From assembly GCF_018413645.1 (NCBI RefSeq), contig NZ_JAHCDA010000002.1, positions 1,116,001 through 1,180,000 on the forward strand: a DNA stretch of 64,000 nucleotides. Reading direction: 5' to 3'. A model generated the notes under the pieces. It searched no databases. It was not told the DNA's origin and worked only from the letters and a program-made list of their open reading frames with translations. A program made the translations under genes and the position numbers. This document shows positions 1,195-34,209 of this stretch, piece by piece. Source of the DNA: Roseococcus pinisoli. Lineage in GTDB: Bacteria; Pseudomonadota; Alphaproteobacteria; Acetobacterales; Acetobacteraceae. How positions within the stretch are numbered: the stretch's first letter is position 1; every line of letters starts with the position of its first letter.

Positions 1195-2111
1195 AATCCA
1201 TCGCGATCGCCCCCGAGGTCGCACAGCACCGCACCCGCTCCCGCAACGCCATGTCCGTGGATGTGGAGGACTGGTTCCAGGTGCAGGGCTTCGCCGACGT
1301 CATTCCGCGCGAGGAGTGGGATTTCCTCGACTGTCGCGTGGAAGCCAATACGGATGCGGTGCTGCACCACTTCGAGGAAGCCGGCATCCGCGCCACCTTC
1401 TTCACCCTCGGCTGGGTCGCCGAGCGCTATCCGCGCCTGATCCGCCGCATCGTCGAGGCCGGCCATGAGCTCGCCAGCCACGGCTACGGGCACCAGCGGG
1501 TGGACCAGATCGGCCCCACGGCCTTCCGCGAGGATATCCGCCGCGCGCGCACGATCCTGGAGGATGCCGGCGGGGTGCGGGTCTCGGGCTATCGCGCGCC
1601 GACCTTCTCGATCGGCCCCGCGACGCCCTGGGCGCATGGCATCCTGGCCGAGGAGGGCTACCGCTATTCCTCCTCCGTCTTCCCGGTGCGGCACGATCTC
1701 TACGGCTCGCCCGACACGCCGCGGGTCGCGCACCGGCCGAGGCCGGAGGGCGTGGTCGAGCTGCCGATGACCACCTGCCGCGCCTTCGGCCGCAACCTGC
1801 CCTGCTCGGGCGGGGGATGGTTCCGGCTTGCGCCCTACCGGCTCTTCCGCGCGGGGCTGCGCCACGTGAACGACATCGAGGGCCGGGCCGGCATCTTCTA
1901 CTTTCACCCCTGGGAGATCGACGCGGCCCAACCGCGCGTCTGGCACGCCAACCGCCTTTCGCGCTTCCGGCACTACACCGGTGTCGCCAGCATGCCGCCG
2001 CGGCTGGCCCGCCTGCTGAGCGACTTCTCCTGGGGTGCCATGGAGGATGTCTTCGCCGACGAGATCAGCCAGGCGCCCGCCCCCGCCGGCCACCGCGCCA
2101 TGGTGAACTGA
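1191..2111 (+). CDS. XrtA system polysaccharide deacetylase
   Basis: A 306-residue NodB-fold deacetylase of the TIGR03006/DUF3473 type, predicted to remove N- or O-acetyl groups from the exopolysaccharide made by this locus. Metal-binding motifs are visible: SVDVEDWF near residues 22-29 (motif 1), ELASHGYGH near residue 90 (motif 2, with the two histidines) and GYRAPTFSI near residue 130 (motif 3). The C-terminal part with FYFHPWEID and the H-T-G-V segment is characteristic of the DUF3473 extension. I chose the ATG at 1191 because it overlaps the preceding stop by four bases and sits directly before the conserved domain. The open frame continues upstream only as an overlap with the ATPase. 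Confidence 0.94.
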   Translation: MKSIAIAPEVAQHRTRSRNAMSVDVEDWFQVQGFADVIPREEWDFLDCRVEANTDAVLHHFEEAGIRATFFTLGWVAERYPRLIRRIVEAGHELASHGYGHQRVDQIGPTAFREDIRRARTILEDAGGVRVSGYRAPTFSIGPATPWAHGILAEEGYRYSSSVFPVRHDLYGSPDTPRVAHRPRPEGVVELPMTTCRAFGRNLPCSGGGWFRLAPYRLFRAGLRHVNDIEGRAGIFYFHPWEIDAAQPRVWHANRLSRFRHYTGVASMPPRLARLLSDFSWGAMEDVFADEISQAPAPAGHRAMVN

Positions 2112-2113
2112 GC

Positions 2114-4425: not shown

Positions 4426-5885
4426 GCACCGCCCGCCCGACCGCCACCCTCGTCCCGGACTTCTCCGGATGGGAGACGGCGCTCGCCGCCATGGCGATCG
4501 GGCTGGGCGCGCTGGGCGTGCTGTTCTGGCCCGAGGTCGCGGCCGCGGTCTCCACCTGGGACCGCTCCAGCGCCTATGGGCATTGCTGGCTGATCCTGCC
4601 CATCGCCGCCTGGCTGGCCTGGAGCCGGCGCCACCGGCTGGCAGGGCTGTCGCCGGAACCCCTGCCCCTCGCCGGCCTCCTGGCGATCGGCGGCGCGGCG
4701 GCCTGGTTCGTGGCCGAGCGTCTGGGCATCATGGAGGGGCGGCAATTCGCGGCACTCGGCCTCGTCTGGGTGCTGGTGCTCGCCACCCTCGGCTGGCGGG
4801 TGAGCTGGGCGATGGCCGCACCGCTGGGCTACCTCGTCTTCCTGGTCCCCTTCGGCGAATTCGCGACCCCCTGGCTGCAGGACATCACGCTCGACATGAT
4901 CCTGTTCGGGCTCCGGATCTTCGGCATCCCGCATCATGCCGACGGGCTCACCATCGACATCCCGGCCGGCACCTTCCTGGTGGCCGAGGCCTGCGCGGGG
5001 CTGCGCTTCCTCATCGCGGCGATGGCTTTCGGCACGCTCTATGCCCTGTGCATGTTCCGCAGCCCCTGGCGGCGGCTCATGGTGATGCTGCTGGCGGTCG
5101 TCGTGCCGGTGATCGCCAACGGGATCCGCGCGCTCGCGATCGTGCTGATGGGCCACTACATGGGCAGCGCCGAGGCGGCCGCGGCCGACCACGTGATCTA
5201 CGGCTGGGGCTTCTTCTCCCTCGTCATGGTCCTCCTCATCGTCGCGGGCCTGCCCTTCCGGCAGGATGCCGAGCCCGCCGTGCCGGCCTCCGTTCAGCCG
5301 ATCCGGCCCGCCGCGCCGCCCCGCCTCGCCGCGGCGCTGGTGATCGCGGTCGGCCTTGCCGCCCTCGGGCCGGTCGCCGCCCGGGCGCTCGACGCCTCCG
5401 TCCCGCCGCCGGTGGCCGAGACGATCCGCCTCGCCGCGCCGGCGGGCTGCGAGGCCGGCGGCGAGGCGCTGCTTTGCCCAGGTGCGAGCTTATCGGCGTC
5501 GGTGATCGCCTTTGCCCCGGGCACGAACTGGTCGGCCGTCGCCAATGCGCGTCGTCAGGCCGCGGGCGCGGATGACGAGGCGCTGATCTTCGACGTCGTC
5601 ACGCCGGCGGCACGCTGGCAGGTCCGGCAGGGTCAGCTCGTGCCGGGGGCGGTGGCCATGGCCGCCTGGCTCGACGGCGCGCCGGCCGGCAACGGCGTGA
5701 GCACCCGGGCCCGGCAGGCCTGGAATTCCCTGCGCGGCCACGGCGGCAAGCCGGTGCTGGCGATCGTGAGCCTCGTGCCGAACGGCCCGCTGGATCCCGC
5801 CCGCATGCGCCTGCTGATGCAGGCGGTTCTGGGCGCGCAGCACGACGGCCTGGTGCAGCGCGCGGCCCACCTGTCGGCTTTTTGA
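4422..5885 (+). CDS. xrtA: Exosortase A fused to an EpsI-like domain
   Basis: A 487-residue integral membrane cysteine protease/transpeptidase that recognises PEP-CTERM sorting signals. About eight hydrophobic segments fill residues 17-290. The exosortase catalytic residues are all present: Cys191 in EACAGLRFL, Arg236 in ANGIRALAIV and His257 in ADHVIYGWGFF. After the last membrane helix (about residue 285) the protein continues for about 200 residues as a periplasmic domain resembling EpsI (DUF3485), the fused form common in XrtA. The start is GTG at 4422, overlapping the glycosyltransferase stop. A PEP-CTERM substrate gene lies immediately downstream. Confidence 0.95.
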   Translation: MSTARPTATLVPDFSGWETALAAMAIGLGALGVLFWPEVAAAVSTWDRSSAYGHCWLILPIAAWLAWSRRHRLAGLSPEPLPLAGLLAIGGAAAWFVAERLGIMEGRQFAALGLVWVLVLATLGWRVSWAMAAPLGYLVFLVPFGEFATPWLQDITLDMILFGLRIFGIPHHADGLTIDIPAGTFLVAEACAGLRFLIAAMAFGTLYALCMFRSPWRRLMVMLLAVVVPVIANGIRALAIVLMGHYMGSAEAAAADHVIYGWGFFSLVMVLLIVAGLPFRQDAEPAVPASVQPIRPAAPPRLAAALVIAVGLAALGPVAARALDASVPPPVAETIRLAAPAGCEAGGEALLCPGASLSASVIAFAPGTNWSAVANARRQAAGADDEALIFDVVTPAARWQVRQGQLVPGAVAMAAWLDGAPAGNGVSTRARQAWNSLRGHGGKPVLAIVSLVPNGPLDPARMRLLMQAVLGAQHDGLVQRAAHLSAF

Positions 5886-5969
5886 ACCTCGGCTGTCGGC
5901 CGAGTTTACACCGCGCATCCAGGCCCTTCGCCAACCCTCACAAACCATTGTTTTCGGCCAATAAATTTA

Positions 5970-5986
5970 TTGGCATGGCGATTGCT
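5970..5986 (+). promoter_or_regulatory. Sigma-54 (-24/-12) promoter of the PEP-CTERM gene
   Basis: The sequence TTGGCATGGCGATTGCT has the invariant GG at 5972-5973 and GC at 5984-5985, separated by exactly ten bases, matching the RpoN consensus TGGCAC-N5-TTGCW closely. Transcription would start near 5997, leaving a leader of about 50 bases before the ATG at 6047. XrtA/PEP-CTERM systems are known to be tied to the PrsK/PrsR two-component pair, in which PrsR is a sigma-54 activator. No activator gene or obvious enhancer site is seen in the window. The element is read directly from sequence; its use is inferred. Confidence 0.8.
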
Positions 5987-6046
5987 GAACAAAGGGGCAG
6001 CCGCGCTCGTCGTGGTCTGGGCATCCATTGATGGAGTAAAAACGAG

Positions 6047-6736
6047 ATGAAGAAGTTCCTGTTCGCAGCACTGATGAGCCTCGGCATTGCCGGCGCGGCT
6101 CAGGCGGCGCCGACGCTGCAGTTCCGGGTCTATGAGGACAACGCCCTTGTCGGCGGACTTTCCACCTCCTCCTCGAGCGGCCTGCTGGCGGCCTCCGGCT
6201 CGACGACCTATTTCAACGTGTCGGCCAATGCCTATGGCGCGCCGATCGTCGAATCGCCGTCGCTGCTCGCGCAGACGACCAGCGTCTCGGCCATCTCGGG
6301 CTATTCGGGCACGCACACGATCCGTCTGGAATTCACGCAGACCGGCCTCACCTCCGCCTCGGCCGGCGGCCTGCTGGCGTCGCTGGCGAGCAGCTTCACG
6401 ACCAACTTCCTGCTGAACGGCGCTGACGTGCAGAGCGTGACGCTCACGACTTACGTCGACAACAACAACACCGCCTTCGGCCGCGGCACGCAGATCGCGT
6501 CGCAGACCTATACCTCGGGCCCCACCAATGCCTCGGGTCAGCTGCCGGCCAACATCGCCCTGACGAACGAGTTTTTCTCGGAGACGCTGGTGATCACGGC
6601 GACCTTCACGGGCCCCTCCGCAGGCCTGCAGGCCGACGCCCAGATCGTGCGCGTGCCCGAGCCGGCCTCCTTCGCCCTGCTCGGCTCCGCCCTGCTCGGC
6701 CTGGGCTTCGCTCGCCGCTCGCGCCGCAAGGGCTGA
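6047..6736 (+). CDS. PEP-CTERM sorting-domain protein (exosortase substrate)
   Basis: A 229-residue secreted protein. Residues 1-21 form a Sec signal peptide (KKFLFAALMSLGIAGAAQA, cut before AP). The middle is Ser/Thr/Ala/Asn-rich, low in cysteine and predicted to be beta-rich, typical of extracellular adhesive or matrix proteins. Residues 203-229 form the sorting signal: V-PEP, a hydrophobic stretch (SFALLGSALLGLGFA) and a basic tail RRSRRKG. XrtA, encoded just upstream, should cleave near PEP. The body has no family I recognise. It has its own sigma-54 promoter and a leader ending GGAGTAAAAACGAG before ATG, so it is regulated separately from the biosynthetic operon. Confidence 0.93.
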   Translation: MKKFLFAALMSLGIAGAAQAAPTLQFRVYEDNALVGGLSTSSSSGLLAASGSTTYFNVSANAYGAPIVESPSLLAQTTSVSAISGYSGTHTIRLEFTQTGLTSASAGGLLASLASSFTTNFLLNGADVQSVTLTTYVDNNNTAFGRGTQIASQTYTSGPTNASGQLPANIALTNEFFSETLVITATFTGPSAGLQADAQIVRVPEPASFALLGSALLGLGFARRSRRKG

Positions 6737-20872: not shown

Positions 20873-21524
20873 AATGGATAAGGTTATGAGCGGTGCGACG
20901 TTGATCTGCGTCGCACCGCCATTTGGATAGCGTGAGCGGAGCGTATGGGCGGAGCGATGAGGCCTGGGCTGTGATCGAACCGTAGCTGCCTCAGAACCGT
21001 CAGGCGTGCGTCGTGACGACGACCGGCGAGATCTCGCACATCCTGTGCGCAAGCATCGTTGAGACGATAGCTCATCGTGGCACCACGCCGGCTACCAGGA
21101 TCTACATCGCTGGATGGTCAACGAGGCAGTCGGCGGATCTTTGAGCGCCTCTGGGGCGTCAGAAACACATTGCCGTCAACAGCACGATGTCCAAGTCGGC
21201 CCCTCCGCTGGCATTGCCCAAAGGGAAGAAACCGGGCGATCAGCAGCTCGCTTGGCGAGGGATGTTCCATGTCACCGCGTGAGCCCTCTACTTCGCAGGA
21301 TCATTCGCAGTTAAATCTCGAACCGATGGAAATTAACAGATTTTCATAAACACCCTTCTTCTTAAACCTTCCGTTGACTCGACAAGCGATGACACTAAAC
21401 GTCACGTGGCAACTTATAATCCCGCAGTCATGCTACTCTTTTGATGAATTTATAATTTATCAAATAATCATGGCATAAATCTATTAATAATCATTTTTTC
21501 CAGTAGATGAGGATCAGGAATACC
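20873..21524. other. Non-coding gap before the glycan island, with an AT-rich promoter zone
   Basis: About 650 bases with no intact gene. After the hairpin at 20890-20919, bases 20930-21340 have ordinary GC content but no frame with codon bias. Fragments vaguely recall transposase remnants, but I cannot assign them. From about 21345 the sequence turns strongly AT-rich up to the acyltransferase gene. It contains a perfect TATAAT at 21415-21420 (its -35 position reads ACACTA, poor) and several TTTATAA runs. This is probably the promoter region of the MBOAT gene and marks an abrupt change of composition at the edge of the island. Confidence 0.55.
20890..20919 (+). terminator. Terminator hairpin of the Dpp/Opp-type operon
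   Basis: GCGGTGCGACG (20890-20900) pairs perfectly with CGTCGCACCGC (20909-20919) across an 8-base loop, giving an 11-bp stem soon after the last permease gene. It is followed by CATTTGG, only a weak T-tract. Confidence 0.65.
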
Positions 21525-22946
21525 GTGGTTTTCTCGTCGGCTCCGTTTCTATTTTTCTTTCTTCCAATATTTTTCTGCGTATATTTTTCAGTTAATTCCA
21601 TAAAAATAAAAAACTACGCCGTCCTTTTTTTCTCTCTGGTTTTTTACGGCTGGGGAGAACCGTGGTTTGTGCTGGTTTTGGCTGCCTCCATGATCATCAA
21701 CTGGAGCGCGGCCATCTACATAGACCGGGAGGAAGGGCGAGGCCGATCGATAGCCCTTGCCGTTACCATCACGTTGAATCTGCTTTTGCTGGCAGCTTTC
21801 AAGTACGGCGACTTCATCGTCCACAACGTCAATGCCATCCTGTCACCAATGCTTGGCCTGACTCTGCCGCAGCCGTCCCTGCCCTTGCCCTTGGGTATTT
21901 CCTTCTTCACCTTCCATTGCCTCTCCTACGTCATCGACGTTTATCGGCGCCGATTTCACGCCAATCGACGACCTAGCGAGATTGCGCTCTATATCGTCCT
22001 GTTCCCACAACTCGTGGCGGGACCGATCGTGCGATACAAGACCATCGCGCGGCAGTTGCGTTTACGCCGGCATACGATGGCCCGTGCCTCGATCGGCGCG
22101 CGGATCTTCATCATCGGCCTCGCCCAGAAGATTCTTATTGCAGATCAGGTGGCTAGCCTCGTCGAAACCGTTTTTGATCACAGCCCCAATCCGTCGATGC
22201 TGGAGGCCTGGACTGGAATTCTTGCCTATACGGTCCAAATTTACTTCGACTTCTGCGGCTACTCCAACATGGCGGTGGGCCTCGGCTTCATTCTCGGCTT
22301 CAGCCTCCCGAGGAATTTCCGGCTTCCCTATACCGCCCTCTCCATCACCGATTTCTGGCGGCGCTGGCATATCTCCTTGTCGAGCTGGCTGAGGGATTAC
22401 CTTTACATTCCGCTCGGCGGCAGCCGGGGCAGCTCCATTCAGCTCTACCGTAATCTGATCCTCGTTTTCCTGCTCTGCGGCCTGTGGCACGGCTCGAGCT
22501 GGACCTTCGTCCTCTGGGGCGCCTGGCATGGCGCCTTTCTGGTGATCGAGCGGGTCGGCCTGAACCGCCTGTTGTCGCAACTGCCCGTTGCACTGCGCTG
22601 GGTCTATACAATCCTCGTCGTGATGGGGGGCTGGGTCCTCTTCCGCGCGCATGACCTCTCGGCGGCCGGGACGATGTATGCCGGGCTGCTGGGCTCGAAC
22701 GGAATCGATGCCATGCGCTTCCAGGTCCATCTTGCGCTCGAGCCCAATGTCATCCTTGCGCTTGCTGCAGGATGGGTCCTGGCGACCCTGCCGGCCTGGG
22801 GTCCTGCCCTGCGTCGGTCGGCCGTCCCGGGGCTCCGGAAGCTCCGCGCCACAGCCGACACGGCCTGGACCTTTGGTCTGCTGATCCTCTCCCTGCTCTA
22901 CGCCGCGGCCGGGACCTACAGCCCGTTCCTCTACTTCAGGTTCTGA
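21525..22946 (+). CDS. MBOAT-family O-acyltransferase, AlgI-like
   Basis: A 473-residue polytopic membrane protein of the MBOAT family, which moves acyl (usually acetyl) groups across the inner membrane onto exopolysaccharides. Hydrophobic segments cover nearly the whole length. Hallmarks are YFDFCGYSNMAVGLG, LPRNFRLPYTALSITDFWRR and GLWHGSSWTFVLWGAWHG with the catalytic histidine of the MBOAT motif. I prefer the GTG at 21525 (relatives begin MVFSS...), with AGGA seven to nine bases upstream; an in-frame ATG lies at 21507 but has no ribosome site. Base composition is less GC-rich than in the genes to the left. The stop overlaps the next start. Confidence 0.9.
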   Translation: MVFSSAPFLFFFLPIFFCVYFSVNSIKIKNYAVLFFSLVFYGWGEPWFVLVLAASMIINWSAAIYIDREEGRGRSIALAVTITLNLLLLAAFKYGDFIVHNVNAILSPMLGLTLPQPSLPLPLGISFFTFHCLSYVIDVYRRRFHANRRPSEIALYIVLFPQLVAGPIVRYKTIARQLRLRRHTMARASIGARIFIIGLAQKILIADQVASLVETVFDHSPNPSMLEAWTGILAYTVQIYFDFCGYSNMAVGLGFILGFSLPRNFRLPYTALSITDFWRRWHISLSSWLRDYLYIPLGGSRGSSIQLYRNLILVFLLCGLWHGSSWTFVLWGAWHGAFLVIERVGLNRLLSQLPVALRWVYTILVVMGGWVLFRAHDLSAAGTMYAGLLGSNGIDAMRFQVHLALEPNVILALAAGWVLATLPAWGPALRRSAVPGLRKLRATADTAWTFGLLILSLLYAAAGTYSPFLYFRF

Positions 22947-24085
22947 TGATGCCCCTGTTCTTCCGGTATCGCCGCGGATGGATCCTCTGCCTGGTGGCCG
23001 TGCTCTCCGCGCCGCTGATCGTCGGGCTCCTCTTCCCCGGCACCAAGCGGTCCCCCGACGAATTTCGCCCGTCCGCCGCGGCACCCCCGATGCCGCAGGG
23101 ATGGCGCGAATGGCTCTCGTTTCCGGCACGGATCGATCCGTGGCTGCGCGACAATTTCGGGCTGCGCCGCCAGATGATCCATGCCCAGGCCCTGGTAGCG
23201 CACCGGCTGCTGGGCAGCGGCAATGACTCCGTGCTGATCGGCAAGCGTTGGCAGCTTTTCTACCGCACCGAAGGGACAGTCGAGCAGAGCGCCGGCCTCC
23301 TGATCCGCGAGAACCAGGTCCGGCAGACGGCGGACCTCATCCAGCAGGTCGATGCGATACTCGCCGCTCGCGGGATCGCGTTCATCTTCGGCGTCCCTCC
23401 GAACGGCAGCACGATCTACCATGACCTGCTACCGCGCTGGGCCCGACGGGGCGACCGCGCGACCGAATACGACCTGCTGATCACGGCATTGCACGAGCGC
23501 GGCGTCAGGATGCTGGACATGCGTCCCAGCCTTCGTGCGGCGCGGGGGGCCGGACGCGTCTATTTTCGCTATGATACGCACTGGAACCCGGCGGGAGCGC
23601 TGGCCGGCTACAACGCCGTGGTTTCGGCCATGGGTCACGAAGCATGGCGGGCCGATCACGCGGGAATTTTCGGCCCCATCACCCAGCGCAGCGGAAGCGA
23701 CCTCGCCCGGATGCTCGGCCTGAGCGCAGACCTTTCCGAACCTGTCCGCTATCTCACGGTGCCGGTGCCCCAGGGCGAGACCTTACAGGGTACTCCTCCC
23801 TTCCCGCCCCCCTTCGTCACCACATCCGAGCGATCGGAAGGGCCGACGATCCTCATCCTCGGCGATTCCTTCTCCAATGCCGAGGTATTGAGGCTTACGG
23901 CGCAACACGCCCGGCGCGCCGTTTGGCTGCATCACGAGGCTTGCCACTTCGACTGGAAATTGATCGACCAATTCCAGCCCGACGAGGTGTGGTGGCTGCC
24001 GGTCGAGCGCGCCATGCTCTGCTGGCCCGACCGGCGCCCCAGGAACATGCCCGAGGCACCGGCTGCGCCACATTCACCTCGGTAG
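22946..24085 (+). CDS. AlgJ/AlgX-like SGNH-fold acetylation partner, membrane-anchored
   Basis: A 379-residue protein with one N-terminal membrane anchor (residues 12-30, ILCLVAVLSAPLIVGLLF) and a periplasmic SGNH-hydrolase-like domain. The AlgJ/AlgX signature YFRYDTHWNPAGA lies near residue 210 (Asp and His of the catalytic set) and ILGDSFSN near residue 310 (nucleophilic Ser region). Such proteins accept acetyl groups from an MBOAT partner and transfer them to the polysaccharide in the periplasm. The ATG pair at 22946/22949 overlaps the acyltransferase stop, so the two are co-translated. A hairpin follows the gene. Confidence 0.85.
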   Translation: MMPLFFRYRRGWILCLVAVLSAPLIVGLLFPGTKRSPDEFRPSAAAPPMPQGWREWLSFPARIDPWLRDNFGLRRQMIHAQALVAHRLLGSGNDSVLIGKRWQLFYRTEGTVEQSAGLLIRENQVRQTADLIQQVDAILAARGIAFIFGVPPNGSTIYHDLLPRWARRGDRATEYDLLITALHERGVRMLDMRPSLRAARGAGRVYFRYDTHWNPAGALAGYNAVVSAMGHEAWRADHAGIFGPITQRSGSDLARMLGLSADLSEPVRYLTVPVPQGETLQGTPPFPPPFVTTSERSEGPTILILGDSFSNAEVLRLTAQHARRAVWLHHEACHFDWKLIDQFQPDEVWWLPVERAMLCWPDRRPRNMPEAPAAPHSPR

Positions 24086-24086
24086 G

Positions 24087-24108
24087 GAGGCTCGCCTCGG
24101 CGAGCCTC
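24087..24108. terminator. Bidirectional terminator hairpin between convergent genes
   Basis: GAGGCTCGC (24087-24095) and GCGAGCCTC (24100-24108) make a perfect 9-bp stem with a CTCG loop, between the stop of the AlgJ-like gene and the leftward glycosyltransferase-methyltransferase gene. Its position suits termination from both sides. Confidence 0.65.
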
Positions 24109-24118
24109 GCCACCAGGT

Positions 24119-26071
24119 CTAGGCCGGCTTCCTCGCGACGAAGACGCTGTTGGTCGCACCGAGATACATGAATTGCTCCGACCAGTAGAAAAGCCCCTCA
24201 GCGTCGCGGAAGCCGACGGCCGATAGGTCTTCGATGAGCTGCCACCCAAAATACCGGAAGCAGAGACTGCCGCCTTCCGGATCAACCGGATTGCCGTGGA
24301 ACTCGGGCTCCATCAGATGGTCGATGGATCCGTCTGGATGGAGCACGGCGCGCACCAGATTGTGGTGGAGATCTTCCCGGAAGGGCGCCGTGAACAGCAG
24401 CGATCCTCCCGGCTTTAGGCAGCGCCAGAGTTCGGCGAGTGAGCGCTGCGCGTCCGGAACGTGCTCGAGCACGTCGAAGCTCAGGATCAGGTCCAGGCTC
24501 TCATCCGGAAAGCTCAGCCGCTGCATATCCTCGTGACGCAGGCCGTTCACGATCTCGCCCGGCGCATGGTCCGGCCCCAGATACTCGCTGCCGACCAGGA
24601 AAGGGAAACGCTGACGCAGCCAATCATGGAGGGGCGTCACCTGTTCCGTGATGTAGATGCGGTCATTCTGCTGAGGCCGCAGCTCTTGCCAAAGGAGATG
24701 AAGGGAAGCCCGCAGCCTGTTGCCCATGCCGCAACTCGGGCAGGCCAGATGCTCCCGCCAGTTCGGCAGGAGGCGCCCGTCCGGCAGCGAGTTCGTCGCG
24801 TAGGTGAAGTCGACGTGGAACGGCTGCAGGCTGCCGCAGACGACGCACTGCCCCTTTACGTCGAATGCCGCCTGCTCCTGATCCTGCGCCGGGACCAGGC
24901 TTGCCTCGAAAGCCCGCCGCCGCGCCAGTTTCGAAGAGATGCCTGCCGTCAGGGCCGTCATCTCATCAAGCGATCGCGCGCGAAGCATCGGCAGATACGG
25001 TACCCTGCTCCCCACGGTCAGCGGCTCCGCCGATGCTGCAGCACCCCGAGAGAGGGCGAAGTCCTGCAGCGCAATCGGGCTATGCTCATTGAGCTTGCCA
25101 CCGCCATTCCATCGGAAAGCGTAGGGGATGCGCCGATAATCCTCCCGGCCGAACCGCTTCACCTCGCCGAGGTACAGCGCGAATAGCTTGCCGACGTCGC
25201 GCAGCACTTCGTTGCGGAACTGCTGGCTGTGGCGGCTGAAGGTGGGGTTCTCGTCCACCGCGGATCCACTGAAGTGGAAAAAGCGCAGCGGCTGGCCGTT
25301 CACATGCCAGCATGTGGCCGCATCGCTCCCCGACACATTCCGGACGCTGCGCTGAGCGAGATTCCAATAGGCGACGTTGTAGCCCGGATGACGCAGGATT
25401 GCGGTGCGCTCGATGAGGGCCGGCAGCAGATCCGCCCATTTCTGATCGACGAAAAGCCCCTTGGGGAGATCGATGACGCAATGCGTCTCGAGGCGCCGTC
25501 CCCACCAGGCCGCGATGCGACGTACCTGTGGGGTGTCGCGCATCGCGCAAAATCCAAGGTTGTAGATGCCGAACTGCAGCATCTTGGCCTCATCCATGTC
25601 GGCGAACTCCGCCGGTTCGCACAGATGCGGCGTCAGCACACAGTCCGCCCCTCCCTCCGCGAGCAGCCCCTGCAGTTCATCGAGCGGTGAGATGACCCAG
25701 ATATCCGGGTCGAAATAGGCGATGGATGCTCCCGGATGCCGGTCGAAGAGCTTCAGGAAAACAAAGGGTTTGATCGCCGTATTGAGCTCAGTAATATTAT
25801 AACGATCCGTCATCTCCGCCAGCAGCGGGATGCCGAGGGCGTCCATGTGCAGGAACTCGAACGGAAGGCTGTCGAAGTCGACACCGCTCGGTTCGTCGCA
25901 CAGGGCAACGTAGAACGTGATCCCCGGATGGTGCCGCCGCAGGCTATCATGCAGGACCTGCGCCTGAGCGAGGAAGTTCCTCGAGCAAATCGTGAAGGCC
26001 ACGAAATTGGGCGCCGCGAGTGGCTCGATTTCGCGATTGTCCATGCGGGGCCCCGATACCTTTATCGTCAT
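24119..26071 (-). CDS. Glycosyltransferase-methyltransferase fusion with CxxC pairs
   Basis: A 650-residue cytoplasmic fusion. The N-terminal half (about residues 20-330) resembles a GT-A glycosyltransferase: FTICSRNFLAQAQVLHDSLR at the start and a D-x-D-like YFDPDIWV. A middle region carries two cysteine pairs, Cys409/Cys412 (CVVCG) and Cys444/Cys447 (CPSCG), a zinc-ribbon-like arrangement. The C-terminus (about 460-650) is a class I SAM methyltransferase (LSFDVLEHVPD and LKPGGSLLFTAPF). The product probably adds a sugar and methylates it or its neighbour; substrates are unknown. The start at 26071 overlaps the stop of the upstream gene (ATGA), so it is translated together with the FkbM-glycosyltransferase proteins; Met10 (26044) is an alternative. 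Confidence 0.8.
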   Translation of the reverse strand: MTIKVSGPRMDNREIEPLAAPNFVAFTICSRNFLAQAQVLHDSLRRHHPGITFYVALCDEPSGVDFDSLPFEFLHMDALGIPLLAEMTDRYNITELNTAIKPFVFLKLFDRHPGASIAYFDPDIWVISPLDELQGLLAEGGADCVLTPHLCEPAEFADMDEAKMLQFGIYNLGFCAMRDTPQVRRIAAWWGRRLETHCVIDLPKGLFVDQKWADLLPALIERTAILRHPGYNVAYWNLAQRSVRNVSGSDAATCWHVNGQPLRFFHFSGSAVDENPTFSRHSQQFRNEVLRDVGKLFALYLGEVKRFGREDYRRIPYAFRWNGGGKLNEHSPIALQDFALSRGAAASAEPLTVGSRVPYLPMLRARSLDEMTALTAGISSKLARRRAFEASLVPAQDQEQAAFDVKGQCVVCGSLQPFHVDFTYATNSLPDGRLLPNWREHLACPSCGMGNRLRASLHLLWQELRPQQNDRIYITEQVTPLHDWLRQRFPFLVGSEYLGPDHAPGEIVNGLRHEDMQRLSFPDESLDLILSFDVLEHVPDAQRSLAELWRCLKPGGSLLFTAPFREDLHHNLVRAVLHPDGSIDHLMEPEFHGNPVDPEGGSLCFRYFGWQLIEDLSAVGFRDAEGLFYWSEQFMYLGATNSVFVARKPA

Positions 26072-29010
26072 GCAGGAGTTCCATCCGCGGGCGCAGTGGC
26101 CGGCAGGTCAAGCGTATGCAGCATATCGGCCAAACGGCGTGTTCCTGCCCCGACGGAAAACTCCGCCTGTGCCCGAGCATGGCCGCCGGCGGAAAGCTTG
26201 GCCCAGAGCGCCGGATCCTCGTGCAACTCGCAGATGCGCGCGGCGAAAGCCTCCGGCGTGTCGCAGATGGCGACATCCTGGCCATCCCGTAGCCGCATCC
26301 CCTCGGCGGCAATCGGCGTCGCCACGCACGGGACGCCGGCGGCAAGGCTCGAGGCCACCTTTCCCTTCGCGCCCGCGCCGTAGCGCAGCGGCGCGACCGT
26401 CATGCGCAAGCCGTCGAACCAGGGATCGAGATCAGGTAGCGGGCCCAGATACCGCACCCCCGCCGGCATCTGGGAGCGCAGATCCTGCGGCAGATCCGCA
26501 CCCACGATCTCCAAGGTCGCGTCCGGCAGGCGTTGCAGGACATGTGGCCAGATCTCGTTGAACAGATAGCGCACCGCATCGACATTGGGCACATGCTCGA
26601 AGCCACCGACGAAACCGATCCCCTTGCGCTTTGCGAAACCGGGAATCGTATCTGCGCGACGGACAGGGCGTGCCAGCGGCATCTCGAACACCGCCGCGCC
26701 CGGGACATCACGCAGCAGCGCCGCGCGTTCGACCGAAGAAACGACGATGGTCGCATCGGCTTGGCGCGCCAGATAGTATTCACGCTCGCGTGTCATCTCG
26801 GCGAGGCGTACGCCTTCCAGATTGCCAGCCAGCCGCGCTTCCCGGTCCTCGCGCAAATGATGCAGATCGACCGTGTTGAAGACGATCTTCGCGCGCGGCG
26901 CGTGCTGTCGGACAGCCTCGAGAAACCGCCCGCCATGATAGACGCGGGACAGAATGCATAGTCTCAGCGAACTGCCGTCACTGCCAAGAAATGACTGAAT
27001 CGAAGGTGTAAGCTCCGGCGTCAGGCAAATTACGCCTTCCGCCGCCAGGCGGTCGCGATAGGGCGACACCTCGCGAAAGGATTCATCCCCGACGAAGAGT
27101 ACCTCATAGCCGAAGTCGCGAAGCGTTCGCGCCTGGAGCACGGCGTCGACGGATCCGGAATCGCGATCCGGCCGAGGCCAGCGGCTGTCGATGATGAGGG
27201 CACGCGGCTTGGTGGGCAGCGGTAGGCAGGCAGGTACCTTCTCCGCGATCGTGACCGGCTCAACGAAGCTCGGTCGCCAATCCGAAGGTTTGCCGGGCTG
27301 TTGCGGCCCTTCGGGGTTCGCGATCACGGTCGTGTCACTGCCGTTGGTGTGTGCTTTGGCATTGCGGTATTGCCGCAGGCGGTCCGGCAGTTGGAGGGAG
27401 ACGCTCCACCAGGCGAGCTTCACGCCGCGGCTCAGGGCGCGACGCAGGCCGGAGGGCACGTAATGCCCGGCCCGGCGAATGGGATTGGCCGCCCGCCACA
27501 GCGTGCTGGCCTCGATCGCCTGCAGGCGTTCCAGGCTGGACTGCAACTCCTGTTGCGCACCGTGGTCAGCCGCAGCCCTGGCATCGGCGATCGCCGCGCT
27601 GGTTTCCGCGCGCAGCGCCGCCAGGCGCGTCATGACCTCGGCCTCGGCCCGCGCGCGCGCCTGCGCGATGGTCGCCGCGCATTCCGCCCGCTGCGCTTCC
27701 AATCGCGCCGCGACCCCGGCCTCGGCCTGCGCGCGCGCCTGCGCGATGGACGCCGCGTATTCCGCCCGCTGCGCTTCAAGCCGCGCCGTGGCCGAGGCCT
27801 CGGCCTGCGCGCGAGCCTGCGCGATGGACGCCGCGTATTCCGCCCGCTGCGCTTCAAGCCGTGCCGTGGCCGTGGCCTCAACCGTAGCGATTGCCGCATC
27901 GGCTTCCGCGCGCAATGCGCTCAACAGTATCGCGGCTTCGGCCTGAGCCGCGGCAAAGATCTCGCCCTCGCGCCGCAGGCGCTCCTCCAGCCCGCTCACC
28001 CGATGATCGAGACGCAACGAGAGGTAGCGACGGCAATCCGTCTCGCTCAGCGCAATCACCTGATAATAGGCAGGCCCGCCGGGTTGACTGCCGTCATCGC
28101 CGCCATGCAACTCGCGCCCGATCCCGCTCTCGCCCAGGCAGAACAGGCGATAGCCACAACCGCGCAATTGCGTCAGCAGCGCATCCGCCGTGGTGCCGCT
28201 GACGCGGCGCAGCCACTCGGGGAAAATCTCGAACAACAGGATCGGCCGATCCCGGGCGATCAGCGACTGCGCGCCCCGCAGCACCAGCAGCTCGGCCCCT
28301 TCCACGTCGATCTTGATCAGCCGCACCGGCCCCTCGATCCCGAGCGCATCGAGCGGGCGGACCGGCACCCGCCCCAGCGACGCCGCGCCCTCGGGCAGGG
28401 CGCCGGGCACGAGAAAGCTGTGGCCGGGATTGCGCTCATCGGGCACCCAGGCCAGCTCGATCGATCCTTCCTCCGCGCCAAGCGCGATCGTCTCGATACG
28501 GCAGCGCTCGTCAAAGCCATTATCGGCGATGGACTGCCGCAGCCGGCGGGACAGGTCCTCGCGGGGCTCGAAGGAATAAACCCGCCCCCCAGGGCCCACG
28601 GCCTGGGCTGCCAGAACCGAGAACCATCCGATATTCGCGCCGACATCGACGAAGCAGTCGCCCGCCTCGAGCACGGCGAGGACAAAATCCGTCTCCGCCG
28701 GCTCCCATCCCCCGCGCAGACAGCCGAGCGAGACGCCGTGATCGGCAAGGTCGAGCCACAGCTTCAGCCCATCACGGATCTCCGCGCAGACCCATTTGCT
28801 GCGGGCAAACACGTCGACCGCCATCCGCGCACGGAATTCCTCGCCTTCCAGCAGCCGTTGCCCCAGCGCCGTCAGCGAAGCCGCCTCCTGCCCCGCCGCA
28901 ATCGCCGCCTCGCTCTCCGGCACCCGACCAAGTATCGACATATAAGCCGAAATAACATCCTCACGAGTGATCATCTCGGAGCCCCGATCTGCCTGTTTCT
29001 CATAATCCAT
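26068..29010 (-). CDS. FkbM methyltransferase - coiled coil - glycosyltransferase (GT4) fusion
   Basis: A 980-residue modular protein. Order: a short DUF4214-like segment (ITREDVISAYMSILGRVPE, residues 13-32); an FkbM-family SAM methyltransferase with CFVDVGANIGWFSVLAAQA near residue 125 and IKIDVEGAELLVLRG; a long alanine/glutamate-rich coiled coil with four tandem 26-residue repeats (about residues 380-485); a basic linker; and a GT-B glycosyltransferase from about residue 600 (RALIIDSRWPRPDRDSGS, then KGIGFVGGFEHVPNVDAVRY and GAGAKGKVASSLAAGVPCVA). Residues 13 to about 560 are almost identical to the neighbouring 1,229-residue protein, but the glycosyltransferase differs. Comparison with that twin suggests Met13 (28974) as the true start. 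Probably modifies a surface glycan. Confidence 0.85.
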   Translation of the reverse strand: MDYEKQADRGSEMITREDVISAYMSILGRVPESEAAIAAGQEAASLTALGQRLLEGEEFRARMAVDVFARSKWVCAEIRDGLKLWLDLADHGVSLGCLRGGWEPAETDFVLAVLEAGDCFVDVGANIGWFSVLAAQAVGPGGRVYSFEPREDLSRRLRQSIADNGFDERCRIETIALGAEEGSIELAWVPDERNPGHSFLVPGALPEGAASLGRVPVRPLDALGIEGPVRLIKIDVEGAELLVLRGAQSLIARDRPILLFEIFPEWLRRVSGTTADALLTQLRGCGYRLFCLGESGIGRELHGGDDGSQPGGPAYYQVIALSETDCRRYLSLRLDHRVSGLEERLRREGEIFAAAQAEAAILLSALRAEADAAIATVEATATARLEAQRAEYAASIAQARAQAEASATARLEAQRAEYAASIAQARAQAEAGVAARLEAQRAECAATIAQARARAEAEVMTRLAALRAETSAAIADARAAADHGAQQELQSSLERLQAIEASTLWRAANPIRRAGHYVPSGLRRALSRGVKLAWWSVSLQLPDRLRQYRNAKAHTNGSDTTVIANPEGPQQPGKPSDWRPSFVEPVTIAEKVPACLPLPTKPRALIIDSRWPRPDRDSGSVDAVLQARTLRDFGYEVLFVGDESFREVSPYRDRLAAEGVICLTPELTPSIQSFLGSDGSSLRLCILSRVYHGGRFLEAVRQHAPRAKIVFNTVDLHHLREDREARLAGNLEGVRLAEMTREREYYLARQADATIVVSSVERAALLRDVPGAAVFEMPLARPVRRADTIPGFAKRKGIGFVGGFEHVPNVDAVRYLFNEIWPHVLQRLPDATLEIVGADLPQDLRSQMPAGVRYLGPLPDLDPWFDGLRMTVAPLRYGAGAKGKVASSLAAGVPCVATPIAAEGMRLRDGQDVAICDTPEAFAARICELHEDPALWAKLSAGGHARAQAEFSVGAGTRRLADMLHTLDLPATAPADGTPA
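27325..28967. repeat. 1,643-bp direct repeat, copy 1 (FkbM plus coiled-coil module)
   Basis: Bases 27325-28967 match 31097-32739 with, by my count, six substitutions and no gaps. Four of the six lie within the first 70 bases. It covers most of the shared N-terminal module of two glycosyltransferase genes in the same orientation, 3,772 bases apart. Confidence 0.95.
27559..27870 (-). repeat. Four tandem 78-bp repeats in copy 1
   Basis: Four in-frame 78-bp units encode 26-residue blocks of the form xxxRLEAQRAEYAASIAQAR plus AQAEAx, progressively diverged toward the C-terminus (Tyr to Cys, then LAALRAETSAAIADARAAAD). They form a rod-like helical coiled coil between the methyltransferase and glycosyltransferase domains. 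Confidence 0.9.
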
Positions 29011-29056
29011 CTTAAATGATTTCGACTTCTAATTTTATCGAACGTATCAAGCAATA

Positions 29057-32000
29057 TTAAGCACCCTCGCTCTCCACTGCCCTTGCGAGCTCGATGCAGC
29101 GCTCGGCCTCCGCCCTGCTCAGCCCAAAGACGCCAGCCGCGTACTCGATGAACGCCCGTGCAGCCTGGCGACGCCCGGCATCCGGCCGCGCAATCTTCAT
29201 TGCCAGTCCCTGTACCTGCGCGATCTCTTCAAGGTGGCGCCCGTGCGCCGAGCTGATCGTCAGACCCCCCACATGCCGGCGATGACGGTTCAGCGCCGCC
29301 GCCTTGAAAGCGATGTCACCGCGTTCGAGCATACGGATATAGAACAGCCAATCCGCCGCGTTACGCAGCCCGACCATCGCCTCGATCGCTTCCGACAGGA
29401 CCGGCAACGCGGCGTCGCGCCGCATCACCACGGCGCTCACATTCAGAATGGTGTTCTTCACGCAAAGGCAGCGCCGGATCTCCTCGCGCCCGGAATGGTG
29501 ATAGTCGGTCTTCCAGAGTTCGGCATCGACATCGCTCGTATAGGCCAGGTAGTCCGGCGCGATGATCGCTCCATGCGCGTCGATCTGTTTGGATTGCGTA
29601 TAGGCCATGACGATGGCCGGATTGGCGAATTCGGGAATCAGGGCGTCCAGGAAATCGACCTCCGACAGGTCGTCCGCCTCGGCAATCCAGACGAGCGGGC
29701 AGCTGGCCAGTTCGAGCCCCCGCGCCCATTGCCTGGAGACGCTGCCGGAATTCTGCGCATTCGGCACGATGCGCATCGGAATCGGCGAGATGGCGCGTAG
29801 GCTCTCGAGCACCGCCAGGCTGTCATCCGTGGAGGCGTCGTCGAGCACGATGAGCTCGGACACCCGATGACTCTGCGCCCAGATGGAGCGCAGCCGTTCC
29901 GGCAAATACCTCGCATAGTTGTAGTTCGGCACCACGGCCGTCACCCGGTCGGGTGGCATGGCGAGGGTGGTCAGATCCCGCACATAGGCCGGGAAGCTCA
30001 GCCGTTCGGCCACGATGCGTTCGCCGGCCTGGCCGGCGCGCCTCCGCAATGCCGGGTCGCGGATCAGCGTGCCAATCGCCGCGCCCATCGCCCTCGTATC
30101 CTCGATCGGCGTGGGCAGAAGACCTGTCTCGCGGGCGAGCGCAGGCATCCCGCCGCTCCGGTCGAAGCAGACGACGGGCACCCCGTGCGCGGCGGCTTCG
30201 AGAGCCGCGCTCGGAAAGGGATCCTCCCGCGAGGAGAGCAGGAAGATGTCAGCCGCCGAGAGGAAATCCTGGGGCTTATCCGTCCGCCCAGGCAGCAGGA
30301 TGACATCCCCCAGGTTTTGCGCGTCCATGGCAGCACGCAACCCGGCTTCCAGCGCCGGCTCGATGGCGCCGACCCAAGCGAAGCGCGCCGCTTCCCCCTC
30401 GGCCTTCAGGGCCGACGCGATGGCCGGCCACAGATCAAGGCCCTTGCGGTGATCACCGAAGCCCAGGCCGAGGATCAGGATCTCGTCCTCGCCTATGCCG
30501 AGCGCGCTGCGTACCCGACTGCGCGCCGCCAAGCGGTGATCCGCTGGCAGGGGGAGGCTGTACAGTCCCTGCGGGCGGATCAGCCATCGATGCGCAGTAT
30601 CCCCGAAGGTGCCGATGAAGGCGGACCGCACCGCCTCATTCGGAAAGACCACGACATCGGCCTCCGAGGCGACGGTTTTCGCCACCGCCTCCAGCCCATA
30701 TTCACGGAGGATGCCGGGCATCTCATGGATCAGGCAGATGCTCCGCAGCCCCGCAGCGGCAAGGGCGGGGATGATCTGGCCGGAGACGGTGGTGTTGCAG
30801 ATGACCGTCGAGACGCCGCTCTCCGCAAGCTCCCGTGCCGCGGCTTTCCAGGCCGCCCGGTCAGCAAAGGGAATGTGCCGCGTGTCCGCGACCGCAGCCA
30901 TCGCAGGCTGGAGTTCGCCGCCATCGCCAAGAAGCAACTTGATGCCGCGCTGGCCCTGCCGGGTCATTTCCTCGGCAATGTGCAGCACCAGCAAGGGAGC
31001 GCCATGGAAGCGGGCGTCGTGGGAGACAATGGCGAGGCGCTGCCCCGCATCGGGGCCACGCCGGGGCGCAACCCGGCGCTTCAGCGGGACTTCAACCACG
31101 GTCGTGTCACTGCCGTTGGTCTGTGCTTTAGCATCGCGGTATTGCCGCAGGCGGTCCGGCAGCTGGAGGGAGACGCTCCACCAGGCGAGCTTCACGCCGC
31201 GGCTCAGGGCGCGACGCAGGCCGGAGGGCACGTAATGCCCGGCCCGGCGAATGGGATTGGCCGCCCGCCACAGCGTGCTGGCCTCGATCGCCTGCAGGCG
31301 TTCCAGGCTGGACTGCAACTCCTGTTGCGCACCGTGGTCAGCCGCAGCCCTGGCATCGGCGATCGCCGCGCTGGTTTCCGCGCGCAGCGCCGCCAGGCGC
31401 GTCATGACCTCGGCCTCGGCCCGCGCGCGCGCCTGCGCGATGGTCGCCGCGCATTCCGCCCGCTGCGCTTCCAATCGCGCCGCGACCCCGGCCTCGGCCT
31501 GCGCGCGCGCCTGCGCGATGGACGCCGCGTATTCCGCCCGCTGCGCTTCAAGCCGCGCCGTGGCCGAGGCCTCGGCCTGCGCGCGAGCCTGCGCGATGGA
31601 CGCCGCGTATTCCGCCCGCTGCGCTTCAAGCCGTGCCGTGGCCGTGGCCTCAACCGTAGCGATTGCCGCATCGGCTTCCGCGCGCAATGCGCTCAACCGT
31701 ATCGCGGCTTCGGCCTGAGCCGCGGCAAAGATCTCGCCCTCGCGCCGCAGGCGCTCCTCCAGCCCGCTCACCCGATGATCGAGACGCAACGAGAGGTAGC
31801 GACGGCAATCCGTCTCGCTCAGCGCAATCACCTGATAATAGGCAGGCCCGCCGGGTTGACTGCCGTCATCGCCGCCATGCAACTCGCGCCCGATCCCGCT
31901 CTCGCCCAGGCAGAACAGGCGATAGCCACAACCGCGCAATTGCGTCAGCAGCGCATCCGCCGTGGTGCCGCTGACGCGGCGCAGCCACTCGGGGAAAATC

Positions 32001-32746
32001 TCGAACAACAGGATCGGCCGATCCCGGGCGATCAGCGACTGCGCGCCCCGCAGCACCAGCAGCTCGGCCCCTTCCACGTCGATCTTGATCAGCCGCACCG
32101 GCCCCTCGATCCCGAGCGCATCGAGCGGGCGGACCGGCACCCGCCCCAGCGACGCCGCGCCCTCGGGCAGGGCGCCGGGCACGAGAAAGCTGTGGCCGGG
32201 ATTGCGCTCATCGGGCACCCAGGCCAGCTCGATCGATCCTTCCTCCGCGCCAAGCGCGATCGTCTCGATACGGCAGCGCTCGTCAAAGCCATTATCGGCG
32301 ATGGACTGCCGCAGCCGGCGGGACAGGTCCTCGCGGGGCTCGAAGGAATAAACCCGCCCCCCAGGGCCCACGGCCTGGGCTGCCAGAACCGAGAACCATC
32401 CGATATTCGCGCCGACATCGACGAAGCAGTCGCCCGCCTCGAGCACGGCGAGGACAAAATCCGTCTCCGCCGGCTCCCATCCCCCGCGCAGACAGCCGAG
32501 CGAGACGCCGTGATCGGCAAGGTCGAGCCACAGCTTCAGCCCATCACGGATCTCCGCGCAGACCCATTTGCTGCGGGCAAACACGTCGACCGCCATCCGC
32601 GCACGGAATTCCTCGCCTTCCAGCAGCCGTTGCCCCAGCGCCGTCAGCGAAGCCGCCTCCTGCCCCGCCGCAATCACCGCCTCGCTCTCCGGCACCCGAC
32701 CAAGTATCGACATATAAGCCGAAATAACATCCTCACGAGAAACCAT
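29057..32746 (-). CDS. FkbM methyltransferase - coiled coil - GT4 - GT2 fusion
   Basis: A 1,229-residue protein with four modules. Residues 1 to about 550 (DUF4214-like start, FkbM methyltransferase with VDVGANIGWFS near residue 113, four-repeat coiled coil, basic linker) are nearly identical to the downstream 980-residue protein. Then come a GT4-type glycosyltransferase (about 565-920: RLAIVSHDARFHGAPLLVL, LGLGFGDHRKGLDLW, SSREDPFPSAALEAAAHGVP) and a GT2 glycosyltransferase (about 930-1160: VTAVVPNYNYARYLPERL, LIVLDDASTDDSL, and EADD as the metal motif). The ATG at 32746 has GAGGAAGAG upstream. It is the first gene of a three-gene leftward unit for a surface polysaccharide, with 46 bases between its stop and the next start. 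Confidence 0.87.
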   Translation of the reverse strand: MVSREDVISAYMSILGRVPESEAVIAAGQEAASLTALGQRLLEGEEFRARMAVDVFARSKWVCAEIRDGLKLWLDLADHGVSLGCLRGGWEPAETDFVLAVLEAGDCFVDVGANIGWFSVLAAQAVGPGGRVYSFEPREDLSRRLRQSIADNGFDERCRIETIALGAEEGSIELAWVPDERNPGHSFLVPGALPEGAASLGRVPVRPLDALGIEGPVRLIKIDVEGAELLVLRGAQSLIARDRPILLFEIFPEWLRRVSGTTADALLTQLRGCGYRLFCLGESGIGRELHGGDDGSQPGGPAYYQVIALSETDCRRYLSLRLDHRVSGLEERLRREGEIFAAAQAEAAIRLSALRAEADAAIATVEATATARLEAQRAEYAASIAQARAQAEASATARLEAQRAEYAASIAQARAQAEAGVAARLEAQRAECAATIAQARARAEAEVMTRLAALRAETSAAIADARAAADHGAQQELQSSLERLQAIEASTLWRAANPIRRAGHYVPSGLRRALSRGVKLAWWSVSLQLPDRLRQYRDAKAQTNGSDTTVVEVPLKRRVAPRRGPDAGQRLAIVSHDARFHGAPLLVLHIAEEMTRQGQRGIKLLLGDGGELQPAMAAVADTRHIPFADRAAWKAAARELAESGVSTVICNTTVSGQIIPALAAAGLRSICLIHEMPGILREYGLEAVAKTVASEADVVVFPNEAVRSAFIGTFGDTAHRWLIRPQGLYSLPLPADHRLAARSRVRSALGIGEDEILILGLGFGDHRKGLDLWPAIASALKAEGEAARFAWVGAIEPALEAGLRAAMDAQNLGDVILLPGRTDKPQDFLSAADIFLLSSREDPFPSAALEAAAHGVPVVCFDRSGGMPALARETGLLPTPIEDTRAMGAAIGTLIRDPALRRRAGQAGERIVAERLSFPAYVRDLTTLAMPPDRVTAVVPNYNYARYLPERLRSIWAQSHRVSELIVLDDASTDDSLAVLESLRAISPIPMRIVPNAQNSGSVSRQWARGLELASCPLVWIAEADDLSEVDFLDALIPEFANPAIVMAYTQSKQIDAHGAIIAPDYLAYTSDVDAELWKTDYHHSGREEIRRCLCVKNTILNVSAVVMRRDAALPVLSEAIEAMVGLRNAADWLFYIRMLERGDIAFKAAALNRHRRHVGGLTISSAHGRHLEEIAQVQGLAMKIARPDAGRRQAARAFIEYAAGVFGLSRAEAERCIELARAVESEGA
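31097..32739. repeat. 1,643-bp direct repeat, copy 2 (FkbM plus coiled-coil module)
   Basis: Second copy of the repeat at 27325-28967, same orientation. The match ends seven bases inside the start codon of this gene at one side and in the linker before the glycosyltransferase at the other. Confidence 0.95.
31331..31642 (-). repeat. Four tandem 78-bp repeats in copy 2
   Basis: Same four 78-bp coiled-coil units as at 27559-27870, shifted by 3,772 bases and identical in sequence as far as I can see. Confidence 0.9.
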
Positions 32747-33397
32747 ATAAATTCTCTTCCTCAGCGAAGATTATTCAAATTTCGACCACGCCCTACGTAC
32801 ACCCGCGCCCCTTTCCTGACACCCCAGGTTGCTCAACACGGCATGCCCAGTCGCAACACCGAGCGATCCGGCATGCATACCATGGCTAGAATGGGGATGC
32901 TGCGCGAGTGGTCCATCTCGGTGCCGTTTGAGATAGCCGTCTCCGGATATCGATCAGGGCCTGGCGTGTCGCGAGCGAACTCTCCAAACAGCTCCCGGTC
33001 TCCGGCGTCAGCCCACCTCGCTTGAAGGCGAGCACGGCGGCGATTTAGTGGCCGGCGCGCTACCTCGCAACGCCATTACACCATTCCGGCATGAAAAGCT
33101 GGACCTCTCGCCATTTTCAGCGCCTCGGCGCCGACGCCTAATGCTTCTCGTTGGCGATAGCCATGTGCCCTTCGGAAGGGCAACCTCCGCAAATTAAACA
33201 GAGTCCGGAACGCGATGATCGAGACTTGCGTTGCCGGCTACCCCCGCGCCTACCCAGAAGGTTTGGCTCACGTTCCGAGCTCTGCTGCGAATCGTCGAGG
33301 CATGCGGCTGGTTATGACCACGCCACCAAACGGGAAAGATGCAGCGACCACGAATGTAACAGTTGCTGCATTTCGTATTCCTTACTACCTTCCGGCT
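32747..33397. other. Non-coding gap upstream of the FkbM genes
   Basis: About 650 bases. The first 40 (32750-32790) are AT-rich and hold the ribosome site and probably the promoter of the leftward glycosyltransferase unit. The remainder has intermediate composition, no codon-biased frame and no family I recognise; several short frames on both strands look accidental. Bases 33340-33400 are again less GC-rich and may hold the promoter of the rightward recombinase-like gene. It looks like decayed sequence at the edge of the glycan island. Confidence 0.5.
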
Positions 33398-34162
33398 ATG
33401 GAACCTTTGGCCCGGTCTCCGCAGAGCACCGTCACGCCCTTTCCAGGGCGAAGGCCGCCCCGGACGCCGCCCCTGCCCTCGCCTGGTTCCGATCATCAGC
33501 TGCCCGCCGGTCACCCCCTCGACCTCCTGCTCTGGAGCATCGAGCTCATGGTGGGGGCGGCGGCGATCCACGCCCCGAAGCGTCGGCAGGTCCAGATGCG
33601 CGATGGGCTGCTCGTCGCCGGCGAGGTGCTGCGCGGCGCGCGGCTGACGAACTTCCTCAACCTCAGGCTCGGCGACGACCTGGCATGGGGCCCGAGGACG
33701 AAGTGGCGGATCAGGACCGCCGGCAACCCGCAGGAGGCGCATGTGGCGTCGAATCTCTGCCACCTCCTTCATCCTTGGATCGACCGCTACATGCATCACG
33801 AGCGGGCGGAACTGCTCGGCACCCGGCGCTGCAACGCCATCTGGGTGACCTGGAGCGGCGATCCGATCGGCGAGATCGGCTTCGACCGTCGCCTGCGCTG
33901 GTGGAGCGGCCATGCCTCCGATGGCCGCCGGAGCTTCGGCGCGGTGGATCTGCGCGCCAGCGTACTGGCCCATGCGCCCCTGCTCGATCCCCGGCATCCG
34001 CAGCTGCTTCCGCTGCTCTCGCGCCTGTGCGAGGGCGCGGCCGGGAATGCCGGCGTGAACGAGGAAGATGTCGCCCTGTTCCGTCAGCAGCACGCCGCCG
34101 CCGAGATGTCCCATGTGGCCCTCGAACCGGCCCTCCAGGGTTCCGACGCCGCTTCCGACTAG
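33398..34162 (+). CDS. Probable decayed tyrosine-recombinase (integrase-like) protein
   Basis: A 254-residue frame with clear GC-rich third positions. The central part resembles, from memory, the catalytic core of alphaproteobacterial phage-type integrases: RDGLLVAGEVLRGARLTNFL (region of the first catalytic Arg), HPWIDRYMHHERAELLGTR, AIWVTWSGDPIGEIGFDRR and a terminal FGAVDLRASVLAHAPLLDP. In active relatives that last block is HRFRH-like; here the histidines are missing, and no tyrosine follows near the C-terminus (ALFRQQHAAAE). It is therefore probably inactive, or repurposed. I chose the ATG at 33398; the frame stays open further upstream in sequence of poorer coding character. It could also be an unrelated hypothetical protein. 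Confidence 0.45.
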   Translation: MEPLARSPQSTVTPFPGRRPPRTPPLPSPGSDHQLPAGHPLDLLLWSIELMVGAAAIHAPKRRQVQMRDGLLVAGEVLRGARLTNFLNLRLGDDLAWGPRTKWRIRTAGNPQEAHVASNLCHLLHPWIDRYMHHERAELLGTRRCNAIWVTWSGDPIGEIGFDRRLRWWSGHASDGRRSFGAVDLRASVLAHAPLLDPRHPQLLPLLSRLCEGAAGNAGVNEEDVALFRQQHAAAEMSHVALEPALQGSDAASD

Positions 34163-34192
34163 CGACGACGGCCACTCCATTCCCGCGCCGCG

Positions 34193-34209
34193 ATAACGTA
34201 GTGTTCACT
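34193..34209 (+). promoter_or_regulatory. Shared 17-base motif upstream of the COG4280-like gene
   Basis: ATAACGTAGTGTTCACT matches ATTACGTAGTGTTAACT at 40679-40695 at 15 of 17 positions. It lies about 100 bases upstream of the GTG at 34310, in an AT-rich promoter-like patch. Confidence 0.3.

Follow-up and report, generated by a model that had tools for sequence, protein, structure and literature searches.

In Klebsiella pneumoniae O7 ORF6, a coiled coil links a methyltransferase-kinase to two glycosyltransferase (GT) modules within one protein, and WbbB of Klebsiella O12 is built in the same manner, with a Kdo transferase as the terminating enzyme (PMC11231755). According to that work, the stalk acts as a length ruler, and the capped end is recognised by a domain of the exporter (PMC11231755). 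Here, we describe a locus with a similar order of parts in the alphaproteobacterium Roseococcus pinisoli, located in a 64,000-nucleotide stretch of contig NZ_JAHCDA010000002.1 (positions 1,116,001 to 1,180,000; hereafter the window, whose coordinates are used throughout). Two adjacent minus-strand genes share an almost identical module, consisting of an FkbM methyltransferase, a predicted helical stalk and a linker, in front of unrelated GT heads. Probably, this module was copied within the genome onto the second of the two neighbouring GT genes, which likely lost a WbsX domain.

Gene 1 (P0001; 26068-29010, minus strand; 980 amino acids) comprises the FkbM domain, stalk, linker and a GT4 domain, while gene 2 (P0002; 29057-32746, minus strand; 1,229 amino acids) comprises the FkbM domain, stalk, linker, GT4 and GT2. 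Gene 2 lies upstream of gene 1, separated from it by a gap of 46 base pairs (bp), and a Pfam scan returned FkbM followed by a group-1 (GT4-type) transferase for gene 1 and FkbM, group-1 and family-2 transferases for gene 2. Comparison of the two module copies—27325-28967 in gene 1 and 31097-32739 in gene 2, both on the minus strand—delineated a direct repeat of 1,643 bp at an offset of 3,772 with exactly six mismatches in the assembled sequence. This bears out the initial annotation, which had described a near-identical module with six differences followed by unrelated GT parts. In the numbering of the first copy, the mismatches fall at 27349, 27358, 27363, 27391, 27926 and 28904; at the protein level they read A/V, L/R, Q/Q, N/D, A/A and H/Q, meaning that four of the six alter the protein. 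A chance origin of such a repeat is excluded. Its edges are sharp: identity drops to background level beyond both ends, sets in no more than three codons away from the start codons as aligned (the gene 2 start corresponds to an in-frame ATG of gene 1 at 28974) and stops at the same codon boundary ahead of the heads in both genes.

The methyltransferase domain, identified by profile matches, covers residues 110-277 of gene 2 (31916-32419, minus strand) and, at the offset of 3772, 28144-28647 (minus strand) of gene 1. Its FkbM membership is well above both family cut-offs (PF05050, 75 bits vs 22.7; TIGR01444, 93 bits vs 37.7). The top Foldseek match of the module model was the FkbM structure 2py6 (E 6e-9), albeit with a TM-score of 0.36 by target and a root-mean-square deviation of 12, while other methyltransferases gave TM-scores of 0.65-0.71; phmmer matched 2py6 at E 2.3e-6. 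Residues 1-60 were considered as DUF4214-like, a candidate rejected for want of a Pfam match. The stalk, which AlphaFold places at residues 311-496 of gene 2 (31259-31816, minus strand) and which maps via this model and the same offset to 27487-28044 (minus strand) in gene 1, spans ~186 Ala/Arg/Glu-rich residues without proline. Its predicted helices cover residues 311-390, 399-468 and 471-496 (pLDDT of the block, 48-83) and would extend ~27.6 nm if they formed a single helix. Within the stalk, a unit of 78 nucleotides (26 residues) is repeated in 3.1 tandem copies in both gene 2 (31412-31651, minus strand) and gene 1 (27640-27879, minus strand), the copy number being equal. The linker that follows in gene 2 (residues 497-550; 31097-31258, minus strand) is basic, with a net charge of +7 and two tryptophans, and is a possible site of membrane contact. 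Segmental repetition was also seen in a methyltransferase-GT4 protein of 1,339 amino acids on a Methylocystis iwaonis plasmid (L147:3097-7116), which carries near-repeated 72-residue segments in its middle, the first two identical at 68 of 72 positions.

Clues to the origin of this arrangement come from relatives of the two heads. Head 2 (29057-31096, minus strand) holds GT4 (residues 745-909) and GT2 (937-1060) by Pfam. A search of 60 genomes, including that of R. pinisoli itself, matched this GT4-GT2 head over most of its length in long open frames in at least eight other genomes among the matches listed, at 34-56% identity. In all six that were scanned with Pfam (G008, G024, G002, G021, G026 and G028), WbsX (PF14307) stands ahead of the head, and in two more (G032 and G030) the alignment shows the tail of a WbsX domain at this place. 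Moreover, 268 plasmid records match head 2, and 18 of the best 20 of these are named GH99-like, a name that we take to go with WbsX-type proteins. The R. pinisoli genome, by contrast with 5 of the 21 genomes of the genus that are positive, returned no WbsX match.

Head 1 (26068-27324, minus strand) is a GT4 by Pfam and reaches 87 bits against NCBIfam TIGR03087, below the cut-off of 316. Among 100 genomes searched for relatives, the two closest (G025 and G023; 50-51% identity) have ~90-115 residues before the aligned part, and a relative in Roseomonas gilardii (50%) lies beside dTDP-rhamnose genes. The N-terminal parts of the more distant relatives scanned hold GT2 (three), Hint (one), Methyltransf_24 (one) or no Pfam match (two). 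The Hint domain stands ahead of a head-1-like glycosyltransferase at L072:1408-3921. A further single protein, in the genus member G008, consists of a weak methyltransferase match (20 bits, cut-off 27), a linker with 39% identity over 64 residues, GT2 and GT4, and lies near an ATP-binding cassette (ABC) transporter subunit with Wzt_C. Since relatives carry WbsX, short stretches, Methyltransf_24, GT2 or Hint, heads of both kinds evidently swap N-terminal partners.

Taken together, the repeat, its sharp edges, the WbsX domain ahead of head 2 in relatives and the failure to find one here argue that the module was copied onto a second head. Gene 2 would most likely have lost a WbsX N-terminal domain and gained the module from gene 1, with one recombination point near the start codon and the other where the linker meets the head; direction and route are what we infer from the comparison. 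The near-identity of the copies would mean that the copying was recent or that exchange is still ongoing. As to function, analogy with polymerase-terminator enzymes (WbdD, WbbB, O7 ORF6) suggests that the methyltransferase would probably methylate the end of a growing glycan, while the stalk would hold it away from membrane-side heads that each add their own sugar or sugars. By the same analogy, the stalk is a possible length ruler. A more elaborate proposal, to which we give only little weight, is that one cap and one length-setting stalk sit on two polymerase heads of a single operon, so that two glycans (or blocks) would receive the same methyl mark and length limit, the 26-residue repeats being adjustable and kept in step via gene conversion.

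Several observations weigh against this reconstruction. No genome searched carries the module on one head only, and the direction of copying is accordingly the presumed one. Identity between head 2 and its WbsX-bearing relatives is no higher than 34-56%, so loss of WbsX may also predate the gain of the module. In addition, G007 has a methyltransferase before a partial GT4 relative of head 2 (33% identity), and a head-2-like protein on the Ruegeria plasmid pSD20 lacks a WbsX match. On the functional side, known terminated systems use Wzt_C (PF14524), for which the R. pinisoli genome gave no match, while 12 of the 21 genus genomes are positive; a WbsX-GT4-GT2 protein occurs in two members of the genus, one with Wzt_C (G008) and one lacking it (G002). 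Six ABC2_membrane matches, one of them of 255 amino acids, were found elsewhere in the genome. The Pfam scan of the two module genes returned no kinase. Finally, the label ‘coiled-coil’ given to the stalk by the initial annotation is uncertain: long helices are predicted, with modest confidence, and the hydrophobic periodicity does not exceed that of shuffled sequence (325 of 500 shuffles reach the observed value, in a test of low power at the heptad period of 3.5).

The module was also sought elsewhere, using a comparison set with one genome per species. The genome of R. pinisoli holds no third copy at E 0.001, the only other match being 52 bases at 79%. At the DNA level, the two copies described here were the only full-length matches listed in the 21 genus genomes (own included). 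The same is true at the protein level for the matches listed in 299 family genomes (own included; four candidates scored per genome): the others stop near residue 300 or earlier, apart from two that reach residues 444 and 463 with stops inside. The suggestion that methyltransferase and stalk serve as a reusable carrier for different heads thus finds no support among the matches listed, and the relatives show the converse, namely heads behind differing N-terminal parts. A protein search of genome contigs added one distant locus. Self-comparison of 106 loci (695,635 bases; matches of at least 150 bp and at least 75%) revealed nothing resembling the present repeat outside the R. pinisoli genome, where the matches were confined to overlapping repeats of a tandem-like type in L022 (164 bp) and L045 (344 and 237 bp); this comparison is a weak one because 84 of the 106 loci are no longer than 5.2 kb, 10 are from R. 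pinisoli itself and only 17 of the others reach 10 kb. In the literature, with most subscription journals outside the coverage of our search, we found neither a paper uniting FkbM, glycosyltransferase and coiled coil nor a report of a cap-stalk copied between glycosyltransferase genes.

Instead of a recent copying event, the repeat might stem from a duplication of long standing whose copies are still being kept alike through gene conversion, with a homogenised middle and drifting edges. This is the most credible of the alternatives, if less probable than copying onto a second head, and the distribution of the mismatches speaks for it: four of the six lie inside 43 bp by one edge (P 0.00086 under random placement) and five lie within 127 bp of a repeat end (P 0.00046). 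Yet these are only six events, a small sample, and the clustering was spotted first and tested afterwards. Collapse of internal differences by the assembler would, moreover, yield the same pattern, meaning that the edge clustering fits gene conversion and assembly merging alike.

The genome is assembled into 12 contigs, of which C5 contains the window, and comparison of contig starts, contig ends and short contigs gave nine overlap rows. Three of these are exact over 127 bases. Two of the three run end to end (C1 start/C6 end; C5 end/C7 end), while the third, between C10 start and C7 end, falls four bases short of the end of C7. We take exact 127-base overlaps to be the signature left by a de Bruijn assembler run at k=127, which suggests that the genome was assembled from short reads; such overlaps are useful for judging any repeat finding in this genome (G000). 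It is thus conceivable, though unlikely in our view, that the near-identity of the interior is partly the work of a k=127 graph that wrote one consensus into both copies. In keeping with this, the identical runs between the copies (534 and 977 bp) are longer than 127 and would each form a single path in such a graph, 1259 of 1517 127-mers are common to both, and a single mismatch lies deep inside. However, that one internal difference was retained, the remaining six overlap rows are of lengths other than 127 (123 to 933 bases, 98.7-100% identity), and copies can merge only where they have 127-mers in common, which implies little true divergence in any case. The order of flank, module, head 2, module and head 1 is dictated by the unique middle piece, and at each edge there are separate differences no more than 127 bases from unique sequence, which means that both modules exist. 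Hence, of the identity that might have been an assembly artefact, the two modules and their edges are secure, while the count of mismatches in the interior is not, as a k=127 graph may have merged differences there.

The copies could likewise be a product of recent drift in an acquired island, i.e., a duplication without a role of its own in which one gene is on its way out. Glycan islands are often lower in G+C and in G+C at third codon positions (GC3) than their surroundings. Such a stretch surrounds the module genes at approximately 20900-34200 (no strand assigned): its G+C is ~53-71% in 1.5-kb windows vs ~68-75% in the flanks, and GC3 is 0.73-0.83 in the parts measured vs ~0.86-0.94 for genes picked at 34-49 kb. 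The stretch is a probable acquired glycan island. Besides this low-GC3 setting, gene decay would be consistent with the four protein-altering mismatches and the lack of a Wzt_C match in the genome. It is doubtful nonetheless, as neither reading frame is interrupted over its 980 or 1,229 codons and a third gene overlaps gene 1. This gene, P0003 (24119-26071, minus strand; 650 amino acids), shares 4 bp with gene 1, for which reason it likely belongs to the same operon, and pairs an unclassified N-terminal part with a C-terminal methyltransferase. Its N-terminal 350 residues (25022-26071, minus strand) returned no Pfam family at E 5 and no solved structure at E 1; our impression is that they read like a nucleotide-sugar transferase.

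Direct repeats of 1,643 bp are long enough for homologous recombination, and the initial annotation had proposed a deletion between the copies as a ready mechanism for switching a surface glycan. The geometry behind this idea stands: recombination would remove 3,772 bp including the GT4-GT2 head and leave one in-frame open reading frame, computed to encode 968 amino acids. This product equals gene 1 from its second methionine at 966 of 969 letters (stop counted) and is thus no enzyme unlike the existing ones; the deletion simply removes head 2 and leaves gene 1 preceded by what now lies upstream of gene 2. A selected switch toggling the GT4-GT2 head in the population is therefore very improbable, despite direct repeats and an in-frame product, since the outcome is one-way loss rather than exchange and since no full-length module was listed in the other genomes searched that could provide a variant for comparison. 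Reversal would need an outside copy of the lost sequence; unequal exchange could, in turn, amplify gene 2. That the deletion junction is absent from the assembly says nothing, because deletion at a collapsed repeat makes no new k-mer, and a k=127 graph could not separate the present order from a chromosome with the deletion accompanied by a circle. In Helicobacter and Neisseria, recombination between duplicated surface-glycan genes, with its variants, is documented. The present locus resembles these cases in having repeated coding sequence inside glycosyltransferase genes and differs from them in that the expected product is loss only.

Elsewhere in the window, ~15 kb from the island, AAA ATPase, GNAT, GT4, exosortase and PEP-CTERM genes stand in a row (223-6736), which presumably constitutes an XrtA-type exopolysaccharide locus. 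Between 10305 and 16383, near ABC-transporter and luciferase-like genes, two diverged repeat pairs (10305/11257, 76%; 14510/16084, 75%) are apparently old tandem duplicates.

Modularity is a known trait of the enzymes by which surface polysaccharides are built, capped and measured, and in our judgement recent module exchange is seldom caught. What looks new here is a cap-stalk copied onto a second head with an identifiable lost partner: WbsX, as seen in relatives, is the likely former partner, FkbM-stalk has taken its place, and the neighbouring gene is the probable source. The repeat pair therefore provides an example of surface-sugar enzymes assembled from exchangeable parts, with no sign yet of a switch function. 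Copying of the module is likely and the ruler reading possible; if the stalk does set chain length, the gene pair would be a natural experiment in which a single ruler serves two heads.

Among the proteins compared, the WbsX-GT4-GT2 proteins have the same GT4-GT2 head as gene 2, with an N-terminal WbsX in place of FkbM and stalk. O7 ORF6 and O12 WbbB are alike in placing an N-terminal modifying enzyme before a stalk and C-terminal transferases, a likeness of order; the methyltransferase of the present genes is of the FkbM type and comes without a kinase match, unlike O7 ORF6 (PMC11231755). E. coli O9a WbdD also has an N-terminal methyltransferase and an extended stalk, together with a C-terminal membrane segment (PMC3482155; PMC11231755). 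Here too the resemblance is one of part order: WbdD contains a kinase and works with a polymerase that it recruits as a separate protein, whereas the transferases are fused in R. pinisoli. A feature that sets this locus apart from O7 ORF6 and WbbB is that its cap-stalk occurs in two adjacent genes with unrelated heads.

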